From a virus: DNA of 28,753 nucleotides. The notes under the pieces were generated by a model. That model saw only the letters and a list, made by a program, of their open reading frames with translations. It was not told the origin of the DNA and made no database searches. Each line of letters opens with the position of its first letter. Position 1 is the first letter of the stretch. The stretch spans positions 1 to 28,753 of the IMG/VR virus record IMGVR_UViG_3300032287_000961. One strand, 5' to 3'. Positions 3,663 through 28,410 of this stretch are shown piece after piece. Made by a program: the position numbers and the translations under genes.

Positions 3663-3768
3663 CTTCAGGTTCCTCAACGATAGAAACAATATTGTTTAGC
3701 GGATGGTCGTGTGACGAGTCACAGTTATCGCAATGTCCACCTATACCGTATGTAACTGTAAATCCCAT
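3652..3768 (-). CDS. 38-aa hypothetical protein with Cys/His cluster
   Basis: A very small gene between the fibre gene and the MACRTGC gene. Its ATG shares the final A of the fibre gene's TAA (TAATG), and GGAAATC lies a few bases upstream, inside the fibre gene. The protein begins [17 protein letters not shown], continues SSHDH, and ends in an acidic tail. The CxxC plus His pattern could bind one metal ion. The tight overlaps on both sides (1 nt upstream, 11 nt downstream) argue that it is real and translated. No family was recognised. Confidence 0.6.
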   Translation of the reverse strand: MGFTVTYGIGGHCDNCDSSHDHPLNNIVSIVEEPEDGV

Positions 3769-5006
3769 TATGATTTCCTTAATGCGGTTAAGGGTGAGTT
3801 GGTACCTGCAGAAAGGGTTCCAGCAGTTGCAAAAGCACCTGTGACACCTGTTTGAGTCCAAGTAGTGTTATTACTTAGTGTGCTGCTTAGCACGGACATA
3901 AGACCAACGGGACCATTTAGTCCTGCATTGAAGTTGTTAGTTGATGCAGGACTTTGTGGATTCCATGCAAACCAGTACCATCCTTTTGTCAAAGTATGAC
4001 TGATAGTAATTTCATAGGTCGCGTTAGCAGCCAGACAGGTAACTGAACCAGCATCTAAGTTTACGGTTGAAGGTCGGTAGCCACTATTATTGTAGATGCC
4101 TAATCTAACAACCCCTGTCCCTGAAAAAGTTCCGCCTGTTCTAGTAGCAATTCTGTCAAAAGTAGTATCTTCAGGAACATAAAACAGCGTGTAGTTGGTT
4201 CTACCAGAAACTGTGTAGTTAGCGGAAGTAAAACTGTTGTACGGAGAGGTATAGTAATCTCCTGAAGTAAATCCAAAACTTTGAACTACACCCGTCGCAC
4301 CCGTAGGTCCAGTTGCGCCAGTTGCACCATTTGTTCCATTGGTGCCGTTTGTACCATTTGTACCTGCAGGTCCAGTCGGACCTGTAGCACCAGTTAATCC
4401 TGTTAATCCTGTAGCGCCTGTAGGTCCAGATGGACCAGTCGGTCCAGGAACTCCTTGAATACCTTGAATACCTTGAGAACCTGTAGCGCCAGTCAAACCA
4501 GTTGATCCAGCGGGACCAGTAGGTCCTGTAGCACCCGTTAATCCCGTAGCACCAGTAGGACCTGCGGGTCCTGTAGGACCTATTGCTCCTGTAGTACCAG
4601 TTGCGCCAGTATCACCTTTAGGTAAAACTAAATTAAGTGTTTGGCTAGGTGCAGTACCAGTGATCGTTGCAGATGCAGTTCCGCTACTAGTTACAGTTCC
4701 AATAGAAAGACTATTAGCAGGTCCAGTAGGACCTGTCGGTCCAGGTACCGTAGAAGCCGCACCAGCGGCTCCTGTAGCCCCAGATGGACCAGTAGGTCCA
4801 GTAGGACCAGGAACTGTAGAAGCGGCTCCAGCAGGTCCTGTAGGTCCTGTTGCACCAGCCGCACCTGCTACACCTTGAATACCCTGTGGTCCCTGTGCGT
4901 TACTGACTTCTACCTCAGTAATAAGATTTTCAATAATAACATCTGTTAATTCATTATTTACTATTACATCATATTTTGTTGTATAAACAATAATCTCAGT
5001 TGTCAC
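3768..5006 (-). CDS. Collagen-like tail fibre / receptor-binding protein
   Basis: A 412-aa fibre. Residues 1-37 are a short N-terminal region rich in Val/Ile/Thr that probably attaches to the virion. Residues about 38-96 and 131-240 are Gly-X-Y triplets dominated by GPTGPTG and GATG, which should form a collagen-type triple helix. The interruption at about 97-130 ([19 protein letters not shown] and following) is a module commonly seen in phage fibres beside collagen repeats. Residues about 241-412 form a non-repetitive, Tyr/Trp/Thr/Asn-rich, beta-predicted C-terminal domain, the likely receptor-binding tip. The start is a GTG that shares its first G with the upstream TAG (TAGTG). The segment [14 protein letters not shown] occurs twice in the first block, a sign of internal duplication. 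Confidence 0.88.
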
Positions 5007-9298: not shown

Positions 9299-12200
9299 TT
9301 AGAATGATGTTGATAGATTTCCAAATTCTGCATTAGTTGGACCTGCAGAATGTGAATCACGGGCATAGTATTTAAGAATTGGTTTAAATACTGAAGAATA
9401 AATTTGACGAATAAATGGATCAGTAGAAGCAAGTTTCTCTAACTCATCCATAGCGCGATTGCGCATACCTAACTTCAATGAAGTGTATCCACCAACACTA
9501 CTTAATTCAGGATTCTGAATATAGTTATGTGCCTTATCAAAGATAAGCATTGCATATTTTAAACGCTTACGTTGATCTGAAGAAATAGGAGAAGACTTAT
9601 CTTGCAAGATAGATTTAACTCCATCAAGTAGACCCTCTTCGCTAGTAACAGTAAAGTCACCTGAACCAAGTTCAGTTTCAAGCAAAGGATTATTACTCTT
9701 TAAAGCAGAACGGAAATATTCTGCATTATTAATAAGAGTTTTACGTTCCTGATAGTTAGCAGTTTTGCCAAGATCTATTTCTAGTTGCTCACCAATATCA
9801 AAGTATGTTTGTTTATCTCGAATAACCTGTACGCGTGAAAGGAAGTCTTCATCACCAATAGTTTCAATGAGACCAGCAGCCTTCATCCAGTTATAGACAC
9901 CAAGATTATGTTCTCCTGTGCGTGGGGCAAACAGGTAGGATGCTTCACCATATTGTTCAACAAAGTTATTATTACGGAGTAACCAGTCTTGCGTTTCAGC
10001 AGTACTATTAAGAATCTTCTTAACACCCGCTGCCTCACGAGATACCGTATAGGCTAGTTTGCCAGGATTATTACCAACAAAGATAGCAGCAGCAACTTCG
10101 TATGGATCAGAAATATCATCACCATACTTTGTAAATACAGTATCTAGAATGTCATAGTATTCTGAACTGATACTTGTAATACCAGAATCACGAATATAAT
10201 CTGGAAGACCTACTGACTCCTGTGTGCTAGGAGAAGCAGGAAGAATCAATCCAAACAATGAGCGGATAGCAACAAGATTGTGACCAGAGATACGAATGTT
10301 CTTTATGTAATGTAAACGTTCCTGTGGAGTTGCATCTGCAGGAAGTATATACATACCAGTTTCAAGAAGTTTTTCACGCTTTGCTTTAGAGATACCAATC
10401 GGCAATGGAGCAGCGTTTGCTTGCATGTATGCAATAGCAGATAGAGTAGCCGTAGAGTTTGCAATGTTCTTTTCATCAGTATCAAGCATCTTCCAGATGC
10501 GATCAAGGGATGCAGGAACAATTGCTTTACGAATATCTAAGTTATCACCAATGTCACCAAGAAGCATATTGTCTAGATCTTCAGCAAAAGCCTTACCATC
10601 ATCACCAAAGTGACCAACAAGACCTTTTAATCCCATTACACCTACTGATGCAATTGGACCTGAAAGATAAGGAAGACCAGCATCATCTTGGAAAGATGGA
10701 TTCAAACCCGTCATACGGAATGTAAATTTATTAAATAGTGGTTGCTTAAAGGATAGGTTACCACCACTAAGGGTACGGAGTACTGGATCAAGACCAGCAA
10801 AGATAATGTTATCCATTGGCATAACAAGATATTCATTACCTTGTTCGTCTTTTTCAACTATACCTGCACCATTCAGTCCTGAATGTGTAAGTCGTAGACG
10901 GTAGATAGCACGTGATGATACATCTTTTACACGGTAAATACGGCGATAGAAGTCTTCAATTGCACGATAAAAACGGTTAACGTTTCTTATGCTACCTACA
11001 AGGTTAGTACGAACATGTGGATTGTCAACAAACTTAAGCGTATTGTTTACTGCACTTTTCATTGCTACTTCAGTATAGTAACTCTTAGCAGTATTACTTG
11101 AGCGATTAAATAATCTTACAGTTTCATCAGAGAATAACTCTGGATTTTTCATTACTGCATCATAGGTAGGTACTTTGATTTGAAAGTTATCACCAGATGC
11201 AACGCGTTCAATATCTCCACCAAGATCTTTGCCACTACGCTGTATTGATTTAACCGTATCATCAAAGTCTTTTCTAGCCATACCTTGTTCAAATGCTCTA
11301 AAGAATTTGCGGTAGTGTAGATAGTAGGACATTACTGCAGGTTGACGAAGTAGTGCTGTTGCTGTGCGGTCCATCATGTCCCACATGCCATCACCAAATT
11401 TGTCGTACCATCCACCAGCACCAAGATCCATATCATCAATTTTAATAATATCAGTAACAATTTCATCTTTAGTTAGGTTGTCACCAACAAGTTTAGTATA
11501 ATCTTCATATGATAGATTCTTAATTACTTCATCATACTTGTCTGATTGACTCTTAAACATCTTGCTAGGATAACTTGCTACACGAGAAAGAACTTCATCT
11601 ACAAACTGTTGATTAAAACCTTCACCATGAAAGGCTTTACGCATATCAAGTAATTGATTAATGATAATTTCATCAAGAAGTTCCTCTTCAGTTGCGCCTT
11701 TGCGCGCTGATGCAACAGTACCTGCATAGTTATTAATAATTTTTTTACGAAGAAGTGCACCTTCTTGACCAGCCATTTTACCTTTAACAGATCTAAGAGC
11801 CATGTCAATTGCTTCATCTGTTAGAAGACCATTAAACTGAAAGAACTCTTCAGTTAAGTTAATTTTGCCACCAAGTTTATTATTAACAAAGCGCATATAA
11901 AAGTTTTTAAACATTGAGTAACGGGTACCCTCTGCGCCTAGAACTCTAGGACTTAAAAGACGGTAATCTCCACCAGTAAGAATCTTTAACTCTGCTTCGG
12001 TACGGGTAAGAGTACTCATACTCATAGTATGTACCCGAACCATATCATCAATCTTGCCAGCACCTGTGTATTTTGCTACACCAGACTCAGCAGAAGAAAT
12101 AATATGTGGATTAGTACGCATAGCATCAATGATGTCATTACGAATTTGTGGATTCTTTGCAAGTTTATCAAAGATCGCTACAGAACGAGATGCAAGAGCA

Positions 12201-14521
12201 TCTAAGTAAGCATTATTGATAGCGTCCATTGGAATGTTCTTACCTTTAGCAGCATCAACAATAGCCTTGTACATTGCTACACGTTCTTCAAGAGAAATTG
12301 CTCCAACTAGATCAATATCTTTTGCAAACCTGCCACCAAATTTTTTAGCAATCTTCCGAACGGTATTACTAATTGGACCAATTGCTCGGTTAGATCCCGT
12401 AAAGGCAGTCAATGCTTTACCAGCAGCACGACCTTTAAGAAAGTTCATTAGAACTTCACGAGGTGCAGTTAAGCCAAACATAAAGGCTTCATCAATAGAT
12501 GAACGAATACCAAGTTTAGGTGCAAGAGTAAACAAAGACCAAGTATTGGTCATGTTAGTTGCAAGACTGCTATTTAAAGCACCACCAATTGTATGAAGAA
12601 CAGAAATTTTTCCATCTTTACTGGCACTCTTACCTGCAGACTTAAATGCTAAGTTACCCGCTGCTTCTAAAACATCTTGCCAAGGCAAATGCCCAATAGC
12701 CTGTGTTGTTTGGAAGTTATGTACAGCACCATTAATTGTTCGTTTAGATCCATACTTTGTAAGACCATTAGCACTAATGTCTCGAACGACAGTCATGCCT
12801 TCATCTGCAGCACCAAACTTCTCACGAAGGATGCGCTCAATTGTTTCTTGTCCACCAGGAGTTTTATCTAAACCGACAGACTCCATAATTGCACGATATG
12901 TACCACGTAGTTGTACTAGTCGTTCTGCTGGAGTTGAACGTAAGAATAGTTCTGTAGCAACTCCTGCGGCTTCTTTACCAACAATCACCTGTAGAAGTAA
13001 ACGAACTTGACCTAAAGTTTTCTCTACACCCTCACCAATAATAATTGCTTCATCACCAGCAGACTGAGACAAAAGATTAATTAAACGTTGTCCAACCTTT
13101 TTTTGTTCATTCTGCAGTTTCTTAAGTACTGGAGTTTCTATTCTAGCAGCATTATCAATTTCAGCACCTAGACCAGTAAACTCATCACGAATGTCGTTAG
13201 ACATTGCTCGAAGTTCATCATCTGTATAAGTTCCTGTGCCAAGTTTGTTCCACTTTTGACGCAGTATTTGTGTACCAAAACGATTGCGTCTTGCGTGCAT
13301 AACGCTTGTTCTAAAGAATGTTGTGTCTGATGTACGACCAACAAAAAGTTTATGTATATTAGAAAAGTCACTAAAGAATTTTTCTGCATCATCAGCATTA
13401 AAAATTTTGGCTTGTGACATAAGAAGAATATCTTCATCAGTACCATGTTCAGGAAAGTTTATTCTTAAGTCTTCACGAATTCTGGCTGCAACAACAGGAT
13501 CTTTATCTTTAGTTGCTTTAACTAATGCTTCAATTCTAGAACCATAATCATCCCACTTTGTTTTAACTGCAGGGAATGCAAATATCTTTGATACGTCAGC
13601 AGTACCTTCACCAGTTTTTGCAGCGTGATTTGCTATCTTAGCAACGTTTGATGCTTCCTTAGAAATCTTTGCAGTTTCGTTAAGTGCTTTACCCATAAAG
13701 CGTATACCTGTTGATGCACCAAAAGTCATGTATGTTAATGGATCTGCAAAGACAGTAAATGCTGCATCAACGGTACCAGAGATGCCAGTAAACCAAGTAT
13801 CTTCAGGATCACCTTTACCTGAGCGTGCTCCTAAAATTGCACGTGCAACTGTGCGACCAACACTAAGTGATGCTTGTTCATAATCTTCTAAAACACCATT
13901 AGACCATTTGTTTCCATCATTCATATATGATTCAAGTTCTTTAAGGAACTCTGGACTTAATGTGCCATAGGCTGCTGCAATTTCACCAGGAGTTTTTCCC
14001 ATAAGCGATTGCTTAGCAATAAATGATTTTACTTTGCCATAACGTTTTGTAAGTTCTTTATCAATATTATTATCATAAAGATCTTTTTCATTCCAACCAT
14101 TGTACCAAGTATCTTTATCAAAAACATTATCACCATTAACAATGTTCTGAAGACCAACATTGTATACCGTGTTTATGGCTTTTGAGTATGTTTCAATTCC
14201 ACGCCATGCCCAAGTAATAGGGTTAACGTTAATAAAAGTATTTTTAGCACCTTCCCAGAATGCACCCCAACCACTCTGTGGTTCTTGCATATAGGACTTG
14301 TCGCCACCATAGAAACTATAGAGCATACTTTTAGTATCATCATTAAGTTTGTTAAATTTATCCCAACCAGCGTCACCTGATTTAGATAATTTTTTATCTA
14401 GTTTAACTAGTTTATTAACATTACTAATCTGATTCTTTTCAGCAGAATTAAAAGCGTTGCCGTAAGTATGCGAATAATAACTATTGGTAACTAAAGAATT
14501 ACCAAAATCTTTATCTGCCAT
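9299..14521 (-). CDS. Giant virion protein (1740 aa), probable internal/ejection protein
   Basis: At 1740 aa this is the largest gene in the window. The first 245 residues are charged. Residues 249-269 hold GTVDAAFTVFADPLTYMTFG, followed by a short Gly/Ala segment that could interact with membrane. A related motif occurs at the N-terminus of the partial giant protein at 1-2478. The rest is helical and Lys/Glu/Arg-rich with many short Ala/Gly hydrophobic patches, and it has no Walker, protease, lysozyme or polymerase motif that I recognise. Its size, lone large exon-free frame and late-operon location fit an ejected internal protein or a very large minor structural protein. Encoding it between the protease/portal block and the scaffold/capsid block is unusual. 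The ATG overlaps the upstream stop (TAATG). Confidence 0.78.
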   Translation of the reverse strand: MADKDFGNSLVTNSYYSHTYGNAFNSAEKNQISNVNKLVKLDKKLSKSGDAGWDKFNKLNDDTKSMLYSFYGGDKSYMQEPQSGWGAFWEGAKNTFINVNPITWAWRGIETYSKAINTVYNVGLQNIVNGDNVFDKDTWYNGWNEKDLYDNNIDKELTKRYGKVKSFIAKQSLMGKTPGEIAAAYGTLSPEFLKELESYMNDGNKWSNGVLEDYEQASLSVGRTVARAILGARSGKGDPEDTWFTGISGTVDAAFTVFADPLTYMTFGASTGIRFMGKALNETAKISKEASNVAKIANHAAKTGEGTADVSKIFAFPAVKTKWDDYGSRIEALVKATKDKDPVVAARIREDLRINFPEHGTDEDILLMSQAKIFNADDAEKFFSDFSNIHKLFVGRTSDTTFFRTSVMHARRNRFGTQILRQKWNKLGTGTYTDDELRAMSNDIRDEFTGLGAEIDNAARIETPVLKKLQNEQKKVGQRLINLLSQSAGDEAIIIGEGVEKTLGQVRLLLQVIVGKEAAGVATELFLRSTPAERLVQLRGTYRAIMESVGLDKTPGGQETIERILREKFGAADEGMTVVRDISANGLTKYGSKRTINGAVHNFQTTQAIGHLPWQDVLEAAGNLAFKSAGKSASKDGKISVLHTIGGALNSSLATNMTNTWSLFTLAPKLGIRSSIDEAFMFGLTAPREVLMNFLKGRAAGKALTAFTGSNRAIGPISNTVRKIAKKFGGRFAKDIDLVGAISLEERVAMYKAIVDAAKGKNIPMDAINNAYLDALASRSVAIFDKLAKNPQIRNDIIDAMRTNPHIISSAESGVAKYTGAGKIDDMVRVHTMSMSTLTRTEAELKILTGGDYRLLSPRVLGAEGTRYSMFKNFYMRFVNNKLGGKINLTEEFFQFNGLLTDEAIDMALRSVKGKMAGQEGALLRKKIINNYAGTVASARKGATEEELLDEIIINQLLDMRKAFHGEGFNQQFVDEVLSRVASYPSKMFKSQSDKYDEVIKNLSYEDYTKLVGDNLTKDEIVTDIIKIDDMDLGAGGWYDKFGDGMWDMMDRTATALLRQPAVMSYYLHYRKFFRAFEQGMARKDFDDTVKSIQRSGKDLGGDIERVASGDNFQIKVPTYDAVMKNPELFSDETVRLFNRSSNTAKSYYTEVAMKSAVNNTLKFVDNPHVRTNLVGSIRNVNRFYRAIEDFYRRIYRVKDVSSRAIYRLRLTHSGLNGAGIVEKDEQGNEYLVMPMDNIIFAGLDPVLRTLSGGNLSFKQPLFNKFTFRMTGLNPSFQDDAGLPYLSGPIASVGVMGLKGLVGHFGDDGKAFAEDLDNMLLGDIGDNLDIRKAIVPASLDRIWKMLDTDEKNIANSTATLSAIAYMQANAAPLPIGISKAKREKLLETGMYILPADATPQERLHYIKNIRISGHNLVAIRSLFGLILPASPSTQESVGLPDYIRDSGITSISSEYYDILDTVFTKYGDDISDPYEVAAAIFVGNNPGKLAYTVSREAAGVKKILNSTAETQDWLLRNNNFVEQYGEASYLFAPRTGEHNLGVYNWMKAAGLIETIGDEDFLSRVQVIRDKQTYFDIGEQLEIDLGKTANYQERKTLINNAEYFRSALKSNNPLLETELGSGDFTVTSEEGLLDGVKSILQDKSSPISSDQRKRLKYAMLIFDKAHNYIQNPELSSVGGYTSLKLGMRNRAMDELEKLASTDPFIRQIYSSVFKPILKYYARDSHSAGPTNAEFGNLSTSF

Positions 14522-26006: not shown

Positions 26007-26213
26007 ATGATTATAATCGGTGAAGATGATGTTCTACCTGAACACATTTCATATTCAGCACTTAATGATTACATTGCGTGTGGTTGGATGTACTATTTGA
26101 ATAGGATAAAGAATGCCAAAGAAATCCCTGCCTGGTGGCTCTATGGTGGAGTCGCAGTCCACGAAGCAACTGAAGCCTACGACAAAAAAGGTTACGTCCA
26201 AGCGGACAAGTAA
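26007..26213 (+). CDS. RecB/Cas4-like nuclease, N-terminal part (frameshifted)
   Basis: A 68-aa frame starting MIIIGEDDVLPEHISYSALN with AGAAAGG upstream. It contains the N-terminal signature of the Cas4/RecB-type PD-(D/E)XK nucleases: SYSALNDYIACGWMYYL with Cys25 (first Fe-S ligand in Cas4-like proteins), then PAWWLYGGVAVHEATEAYD with His52. It stops at 26213, but the rest of the enzyme continues one base out of phase in the frame ending at 26853. A six-A run at 26184-26189 lies between the last conserved residue and the stop. The gene is either broken, read by +1 frameshifting, or affected by a sequence error. Confidence 0.75.
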   Translation: MIIIGEDDVLPEHISYSALNDYIACGWMYYLNRIKNAKEIPAWWLYGGVAVHEATEAYDKKGYVQADK

Positions 26214-26853
26214 AGCAGCAAAAGAGTCCGTTAAAGATCAAGCGTACTATGATGCTGTAACATATTGGGACCAAGTTAAAGAGTCAGTACTCTCTGATAC
26301 TATTACATCACGCGGGTCCGCCGTTCCACCTCGGTCAGCGAACCCTCGTTCACCTGAAGGTAAAGAGTGGTGGGACAAGAATGGTATTGAGATGGTTGCT
26401 AACTGGATTCGTTTCCGTGAGTATGGCAACTGGAAGGTAGCCATGATCAATGGTATACCTGCAGTTGAAATAGTATTAGAAGTTCCAGTAGGCAATACGT
26501 TTATCAAGATGGCTATTGACCGCGTTATGGTTGATGGTGATGGTAACTATTGTATCGTTGACCTTAAGACAGGACGTAGAGTTCCTGAATCCACTCTACA
26601 ATTAGGCTTCTACAGATACGGTCTGAAGAAGGTATACGGTATTGACGTTAATATCGGATACTACTGGATGGCAAGGCAAGCAACTATGACTGATGTTGTA
26701 GACTTGACTGGTTATACAGAAGAAAAAATAGAATATCTAGTAACCGCCTTTGACAATGCTCGAAAGGCTCACTCGTATCTTCCTAATACGAGCAATTGTA
26801 AGATGTGTGGTTACACAATGCATTGTATATGGTACAAAGGAGAAAAGAAATAG
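26113..26853 (+). CDS. RecB/Cas4-like nuclease, C-terminal part (frameshifted)
   Basis: This frame (up to 246 aa) carries the catalytic core. AVEIVLEVPVG with E119 and IDRV with D136 are followed by CIVDLKTG with D150 and K152, then QLGFYRYGL. Near the end NCKMCGYTMHC supplies three cysteines (229, 232, 238). With Cys25 of the upstream frame they make the four-cysteine Fe-S set of Cas4-like nucleases. An ATG at 26113 has AGGATAAAG upstream and could start this frame alone. However, the first 35 residues (Lys/Ser/Thr-rich) look like an out-of-phase reading of the N-terminal part and the conserved sequence begins only at about KDQAYYDAV. The enzyme probably trims or degrades DNA during replication or recombination. 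Confidence 0.75.
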   Translation: MPKKSLPGGSMVESQSTKQLKPTTKKVTSKRTSKAAKESVKDQAYYDAVTYWDQVKESVLSDTITSRGSAVPPRSANPRSPEGKEWWDKNGIEMVANWIRFREYGNWKVAMINGIPAVEIVLEVPVGNTFIKMAIDRVMVDGDGNYCIVDLKTGRRVPESTLQLGFYRYGLKKVYGIDVNIGYYWMARQATMTDVVDLTGYTEEKIEYLVTAFDNARKAHSYLPNTSNCKMCGYTMHCIWYKGEKK

Positions 26854-27296
26854 TGAGTAGTGAATCTAATTTTTCATTTACAACTAAGATCAATGGGCAA
26901 GATCTGTTCACCGTACGCGGTGATGATTATGATATGTTCCTAAAAAACGTAGCATTAGCAGGTTCTGTTCCAGCAATATCTCATCTAATCAATTTACTTG
27001 ATGGGTCTGCACCTATTACTGAGCAAGCGATTAATACTATCCAATCAGTATTTCCTGGCTCAACTGTAATTACTCCAGCACCAGTTGCTGCGACTGCTAA
27101 CAATGTAGTTGCACCAAGTCTTGGTGGTGGTAAAACTTGTGCTCATGGTCGTATGACTGCGAAGCAAGGTACTGGTAATGACGGTAAGACGTGGCGTGGA
27201 TACATGTGTCCAGCGCCACAGGGTGCGACAGATAAATGTAAGAATGCTTACATCTATCCGAACATGCCTGAATGGCATACATTCGTAGTAGGTTAA
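26853..27296 (+). CDS. Zinc-ribbon-like hypothetical protein before helicase
   Basis: A 147-aa protein starting at GTG 26853, which overlaps the nuclease TAG; AAAGGAGAAAAG is a strong ribosome binding site. The N-terminal half (FSFTTKINGQDLFTVRGDDY) appears alpha/beta, a Pro/Ala/Val linker follows, and the C-terminal third holds C-x-HG...W-GYMCPAP...DKCKNAY, a probable single zinc site. Similar C-terminal modules occur in actinophage replication-region proteins, as far as I recall. Its place between nuclease and helicase suggests a role in ssDNA handling, but this is inference. Confidence 0.65.
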   Translation: MSSESNFSFTTKINGQDLFTVRGDDYDMFLKNVALAGSVPAISHLINLLDGSAPITEQAINTIQSVFPGSTVITPAPVAATANNVVAPSLGGGKTCAHGRMTAKQGTGNDGKTWRGYMCPAPQGATDKCKNAYIYPNMPEWHTFVVG

Positions 27297-27297
27297 A

Positions 27298-28089
27298 TTG
27301 AAAACATTACAGCGTACTGCTGTAAGACCTGAAGCGGGTGGCGAACCATTGCCACCTGCTTTTAAGGTTTTCCAGAATAACAATATTATTTTCCGAAGAG
27401 GAGAAGTTAATCTAATTGCTGCAGCGCCAGGTGCAGGTAAGTCTTCACTTGCGTTAGCAATTGCTGTTAGATTAAATGTTCCTACTTTATATATCTCTGC
27501 AGATACTAATGCGCATACTATGGCTATGCGTGTTGGTGCTATGGTTGGTGGATTTACACAGTCACAAGCAGAGTATATGATGCAAGCACAGCCCGAACAG
27601 TTCGGTGAGATCCTTGCATCTAATAGCCATTTGTTTTGGTCATTTGATTCAACACCTACATTAAAAGATTTGGATGATGAAGTCGCTGCGTTCGAAACGC
27701 AATGGGGTACTAGTCCAACTCTTATTATTGTAGATAATCTTATGGACATTGCAATGGATGGGCATGAAGAGTTTGCTGGTATGCGTGCAGTTATGAAAGA
27801 ATTAAAGTATCTTGCACGTGATACTAATGCAGCGCTCTTGGTATTACATCATACAAAAGAATCGTTTGCTGGTAATCCTTGCCAACCTAGGTCTGCTATT
27901 CAAGGTATGGTTAATCAGTTACCTGCAATGATTTGTACTGTAGCACAGGAACAAATAGGTGATGATAATTATCTATGTGTTGCTCCTGTAAAGAATCGTT
28001 ATGGTAAGGCTGACCCATCAGGTCAGACTTATATGCGATTGCTATTTCATCCAGAGTCTATGCAGATTATAGATGTTCCGACACGATAA
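27298..28089 (+). CDS. DnaB-like RecA-fold replicative helicase ATPase
   Basis: A 263-aa RecA-fold ATPase starting at TTG 27298, one base after the previous stop. Walker A is AAPGAGKSSLA (about 42-52). YISADTNAHTMAMRVGAM corresponds to the helicase segment after it. Walker B is LIIVDNL with D146. A sensor segment LLVLHHTKE follows, and VKNRYGKADPSGQTYMRL corresponds to the DnaB K-x-RNG motif. It has only the C-terminal motor domain and lacks the DnaB N-terminal domain, as in other short phage helicases. A TTG start is supported because no other in-frame start precedes Walker A. RadA/KaiC-type ATPases are the alternative. Confidence 0.85.
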   Translation: MKTLQRTAVRPEAGGEPLPPAFKVFQNNNIIFRRGEVNLIAAAPGAGKSSLALAIAVRLNVPTLYISADTNAHTMAMRVGAMVGGFTQSQAEYMMQAQPEQFGEILASNSHLFWSFDSTPTLKDLDDEVAAFETQWGTSPTLIIVDNLMDIAMDGHEEFAGMRAVMKELKYLARDTNAALLVLHHTKESFAGNPCQPRSAIQGMVNQLPAMICTVAQEQIGDDNYLCVAPVKNRYGKADPSGQTYMRLLFHPESMQIIDVPTR

Positions 28090-28098
28090 GGAAAAGAA

Positions 28099-28410
28099 AT
28101 GGATTTGAAATATCCTGAGTTTAATAATACTCCATGCCAAGAAATGGGCGTGGAACTTTTTTATACTGTACCAGTTAAGGGCAAGAAGTTAGTAAAGAAT
28201 CGTAAGACTGATCGTATATACTATGATTACATTAATAAGAAGTCTGCTCTTGATGCATGCAAACGTTGTCATATGATTGATGAATGTTTAACGTGGGCAT
28301 TGCATAAAGAACAGTATGGTATCTGGGGTGGTGTTGATGAACGTGATCGCCGTGAACTCAGAAAGAAACTAGGGATAAGAATCAATGAGCCACACACTAG
28401 GGACAAGTAA
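28099..28410 (+). CDS. whiB: WhiB-family transcriptional regulator
   Basis: A 103-aa protein with the WhiB layout: Cys13, then Cys54, Cys57 and Cys63 (ACKRCHMIDEC) to bind a [4Fe-4S] cluster, the GIWGG turn at 74-78, and a basic C-terminal helix (ERDRRELRKKLGIR) for DNA or sigma-factor contact. WhiB proteins occur only in Actinobacteria and their phages, which sets the host. Phage WhiB copies are known to modify host regulation, for example by antagonising host WhiB2 in mycobacteriophage TM4. The start has AAGGAAAAGAA just upstream of the ATG. Confidence 0.93.
   Translation: MDLKYPEFNNTPCQEMGVELFYTVPVKGKKLVKNRKTDRIYYDYINKKSALDACKRCHMIDECLTWALHKEQYGIWGGVDERDRRELRKKLGIRINEPHTRDK

Follow-up and report, generated by a model that had tools for sequence, protein, structure and literature searches.

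In the 28,753-base virus record analyzed here (the window), the two halves of one Cas4/RecB-like nuclease are encoded by overlapping genes on the + strand, in reading frames that differ by +1. The N gene (26007-26213, 68 aa) encodes the N-terminal part of the nuclease, including the Fe-S ligand Cys25 (codon 26079-26081) and the motif-I sequence GGxAxHxxxExxD (His52 codon 26160-26162); its translation begins with MIIIGEDDVLPEHISYSALNDYIACG, includes GGVAVHEATEAYD and ends in GGVAVHEATEAYDKKGYVQADK at the stop codon. The C gene (26113-26853, 246 aa), in the +1 frame with respect to the N gene, encodes the PD-(D/E)XK core. A stretch of 101 nt (26113-26213) belongs to both genes and is read in both frames. 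The best explanation of this arrangement, and a very probable one, is a naturally split two-gene nuclease whose N and C products assemble into one enzyme.

Chance is ruled out as the origin of the resemblance, because the N and C parts separately match one family. The C part aligns to positions 110-246 of PDDEXK_1 (E-value 4.1e-9) and 111-292 of phrog_1870 (4.5e-36), and the N part to positions 1-50 (0.017) and 12-69 (1.1e-6) of the same models. Relative to the curated PDDEXK_1 cut-off of 22 bits, the window C part scores above (37.2 bits) and the N part alone below (15.5 bits); in several relatives the N part alone exceeds it. Together with the open reading frames, these matches bear out the preliminary description of the pair as nuclease halves in frames differing by +1. 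All RecB motifs are found across the pair, with H52 (motif I) in the N product and D136 (motif II), D150-x-K152 (motif III) and Q163xxxY167 in the C product. The Cas4-type cysteine pattern is likewise complete, consisting of one N-terminal cysteine (C25) from the N gene and CxxC-x5-C (C229, C232, C238) from the C gene, so that all four cysteines are, as first described, intact and divided between the frames.

These residues are strongly conserved. P11, H13, S15, Y16, S17, C25, G26, Y29, Y30, G47, G48, H52, E56 and D59 are identical in 100 of 100 distinct split-locus N-halves; the catalytic D and K, C229 and C232 occur in all 127 distinct C-halves, and C238 in 126 of them. In a later set of 185 pairs a single triad is missing, in a row truncated where the locus stops. 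The near invariance of the key residues among relatives agrees with the earlier suggestion that two conserved halves make a working protein likely. The Cas4 protein Pcal_0546 binds its cluster through C64 and C200/C203/C209, with His94 proposed as a further metal ligand (PMC4176176). The CxxC-x5-C of the split C genes corresponds to C200/203/209, and both C64 and H94 are N-terminal in Pcal_0546 (PMC4176176); the split thus parts a single cluster ligand, along with the motif-I His, from the remaining residues. We infer that the window pair is a two-gene Cas4/RecB-like 'iron-staple' (pfam12705) nuclease, with predicted nuclease activity and, because of its cysteine pattern and homology, a predicted Fe-S cluster. 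A single polypeptide is usual for such enzymes without defining them, and here there are two genes. No cas genes were found beside the pair, its neighbors being DUF932, gp49-like, DnaB-like helicase and WhiB genes.

The N- and C-halves align to complementary parts of the single-chain relatives, and the break falls in the loop directly after the GGxAxHxxxExxD helix. The predicted model of one single-chain relative, L323 (pLDDT 91.5), matches ACE1, AdnA, Dna2, AddB and SSO0001 by structure comparison, and the Cas4/AdnA/AddB nuclease-domain fold is recovered in both this model and that of the window C-half. When the window C-half is modelled alone its core is confident, and its first 42 residues and cysteine region are uncertain; the cysteine region scores 63-71, versus 83-85 in the single chain, these being different proteins.

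In order to survey relatives, viral contigs were scanned with C, N and single-chain alignments, yielding some 320 loci. These comprise 266 distinct N+C sets, namely 185 split sets, 71 single ORFs and 10 C-halves cut by a contig end, proportions that reflect the choice of queries and should not be read as frequencies in the population. Among the split sets the C frame is offset by +2 in 87, by +1 in 48 and by 0 in one, and an unrelated ORF lies between the halves in the remaining 49; the commonest junction is a 4-nt ATGA overlap (77 sets). The N part is present in 268 of 268 loci where the sequence extends 1 kb or more ahead of the C part, and the 10 C-only cases and one N-only case all lie at contig or locus ends. 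At one locus (L003), the C ORF begins with an ATG of its own, the adjoining upstream ORF is unrelated and is not an N-half, and the contig ends there. No second PDDEXK_1 gene was found in 12 records examined, and a scan of bacterial genome contigs recovered no relatives. A large phage clade thus holds N and C as separate, co-occurring, adjacent genes, and that the two are separate genes is almost certain. The preliminary description had named homologues in which the parts are always separate proteins, each with its own start, as the observation that would speak against a joined gene; this is what the 185 distinct split sets contain, for this clade only, because in the 71 sampled single-ORF relatives, which are mycobacteriophages and one environmental clade, the gene is undivided.

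Where an ORF is inserted (49 distinct sets), the N-to-C gap measures 90-501 nt. BLAST sorts the intervening ORFs into 15 groups; two have phrog_18407 in common, and some are short and doubtful. Those that could be recognised include an SLT transglycosylase, DUF7004, phrog_18407 and zinc-ribbon-like proteins. Most overlap their neighbors by a few nucleotides. Since whole unrelated genes separate the halves, no frameshift could join them at these loci. The SLT-type transglycosylase, found between nuclease halves in L315, L322, L325 and L327, occupies an odd site for a lysis/entry-type enzyme.

The split also exists in cultured, lytic phages of freshwater actinobacterial hosts, as it is carried by E7 and F5 (OX376640/OX376641), isolated on 'Ca. 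Planktophila landstejnensis' LanE-43 (PMC10202952). In both, LanE43AprE7 and LanE43AprF5, a 61-aa N ORF ending in ELYDYDN at its stop overlaps a C ORF with its own ATG. The offset is +1, as in the window; unlike the window, the overlap is 17 nt and the Lys-rich extension is absent. The main text of PMC10202952 makes no mention of the gene pair.

The C gene's own ATG at 26113, which the preliminary description left unweighed, is kept in L088, L089 and L090, and a Shine-Dalgarno-like AGGA (26103-26106, + strand) lies 6 nt upstream. A match of at least 4 nt to AGGAGG precedes 54% of C starts, versus 11% of other ATGs within the C gene. After the GTG at 26146, the window C frame offers no further ATG, GTG or TTG before the first conserved Trp. 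If translation begins at a codon of one of these three kinds, the C start must fall within the N gene, and some of the overlap is then read in two frames. In the overlap region the excess of third-position conservation is weak. L088 and L089 are the closest relatives of the window (support 100), and in all three the C protein begins with a Lys/Thr-rich stretch.

An alternative to separate expression is that programmed +1 frameshifting, or slippage at the A6 run (26184-26189, + strand) named in the preliminary description, fuses the frames into one protein. That account had placed the join between 26181 and 26213; the region open in both frames is wider (26110-26210), and this openness together with the +1 offset speaks for a fusion. 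However, relatives lie at +1, +2 or 0 or have a whole unrelated gene between the halves, and neither a conserved slip site nor a constant offset is found among them. Conservation of the A6 run breaks down already in L088, where its counterpart is AAAGAAAAC, and in L089 it is A7; the run is also not needed. Taken with the conserved C ATG (L088-L090) and the enrichment of Shine-Dalgarno matches at C starts, these observations make frameshifting a very unlikely explanation. A minor +1 fusion product may be made in the window's own small subclade, because ORFs there overlap by about 86-101 nt rather than the usual 4. A sequencing or assembly error, or a recently broken gene, had also been proposed, and would fit a homopolymer at the junction of a metagenomic contig. 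Yet the same kind of split recurs in the two cultured, sequenced phages E7 and F5 and in numerous other distinct sets, for a total of 185 including the window, with key residues invariant in both halves. Error in one contig would not explain the pattern of the clade, for which this reading is already refuted, and we regard it as extremely improbable.

It is also conceivable, if unlikely, that C is the nuclease by itself and that N is a separate factor (a regulator, a decoy or a DNA-binding piece) that does not complete the C fold. The C core models well on its own, so C might act without N, and the activity of Pcal_0546 survives loss of its cluster cysteines (PMC4176176). Against this, N retains precisely the Cys and His that C is missing, always accompanies it, and aligns residue by residue with the N-terminus of single-chain relatives; the lower confidence of the cysteine region in the C-half model than in that of the single chain, a different protein, points the same way.

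The two-gene reading would entail that N and C are separate translation products, with C initiated at its own Shine-Dalgarno/ATG and, in most relatives, via ATGA coupling, and that they then assemble 1:1. The N subunit would give the first Cys of the Fe-S cluster and the metal-binding motif-I His, and the C subunit motifs II and III, QxxxY and the other three Cys. Assembly of the two products into one nuclease is very probable. The wider proposal, of an obligate heterodimeric Cas4-like nuclease in a widespread actinobacterial-phage clade, with Fe-S cluster and metal site each built from two chains, which arose by gene fission (perhaps once) and received unrelated genes repeatedly afterwards, is probable.

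The history of the split was examined in a tree of 74 rows built on N+C columns; L167 (Streptomyces phage Fabian) proved too divergent for this tree, and both it and L168 were excluded from a second one. The free tree requires three changes of the split label, not one, yet a topology uniting every split gene in one clade is not rejected (p-AU 0.19). Within the split genes, the adjacent/inserted state changes 11 times and the offset 7 times. On these grounds, the simplest reading, although it is not proven, is one fission, after which the junction drifted and insertions occurred repeatedly. L323 sits among the split sequences on a long branch and may be either an unsplit remnant or a re-fusion.

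Downstream of the pair, all on the + strand, are a Phage_gp49-like small protein (26853-27296; PF25690, 5.8e-7), whose start overlaps the C-gene stop (TAGTG), a DnaB-like helicase/AAA_25 ATPase (27298-28089; phrog_243, 8.1e-74) and a WhiB-like regulator (28099-28410; PF02467, 8.1e-13). The WhiB gene and the cultured relatives suggest that the host of the window phage is an actinobacterium. Because a DnaB-like helicase is nearby both in the window and in single-ORF actinophages, the rebuilt enzyme would presumably be a ssDNA exonuclease or resection enzyme of a replication/recombination module, a role that in its details stands at about even chances. Elsewhere in the window, on the - strand, the structural region contains a 1740-aa ORF (9299-14521) with no Pfam or PHROG match, and a 412-aa tail-fibre-like protein (3768-5006) matches collagen-like and tail-fibre PHROGs.

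In Cas4/AddB-type nucleases the Fe-S cluster holds a single chain together by stapling its N-terminal end to its C-terminal end. A naturally occurring, stable split allows one to test whether the staple alone holds two chains together, and provides a ready-made split nuclease. It also explains why annotation of such phages would call a broken or partial gene. As a probable case in which a gene underwent fission and its interior then repeatedly received unrelated genes, it is testable in the cultured phages E7 and F5.

No description of a two-gene Cas4-like nuclease was found in the literature searched, which comprised papers open without subscription. The closest known counterparts are the single-ORF Cas4-family/RecB-like exonucleases of actinobacteriophages (phrog_1870/phrog_69), such as gp62 of mycobacteriophage Bxb1, gp69 of Timshel and gp37 of Propionibacterium phage PA6, which have the same residues, order and domain as the pair and, as in the window, a DnaB-like helicase within a few genes downstream. 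They are one polypeptide, whereas in the window there are two genes, cut after the motif-I helix. Partial copies occur in this group: gp70 of mycobacteriophage Et2Brutus (L007, 4352-4708), a separate protein of 118 aa, repeats the N-terminal part of the phage's full-length Cas4 exonuclease (gp75) fused to a phrog_642-like tail, a partial duplication. In mycobacteriophage McGuire (gp72-gp71; L008, 1842-2517), an intact Cas4 exonuclease is preceded by an HNH endonuclease gene and by a short fragment matching the exonuclease N-terminus. HNH/intein insertion was considered as the origin of the split; the N domain is still part of the McGuire nuclease ORF, and gp72 is no more than a short piece of the N-terminus, so this is not the same split. 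The single-ORF environmental clade (L137, L122, L159 and others) and L323 belong to the same family and are fully collinear with the pair, but unsplit. Cas4 (SSO0001, Pcal_0546) and the iron-staple domains of AddB, AdnA and Dna2 have in common with it the 1+3 Cys arrangement, RecB motifs I-III, QhXXY and the fold; all of these are single-chain, whereas in the window, which lacks CRISPR genes, the cluster and the active site would span two chains.
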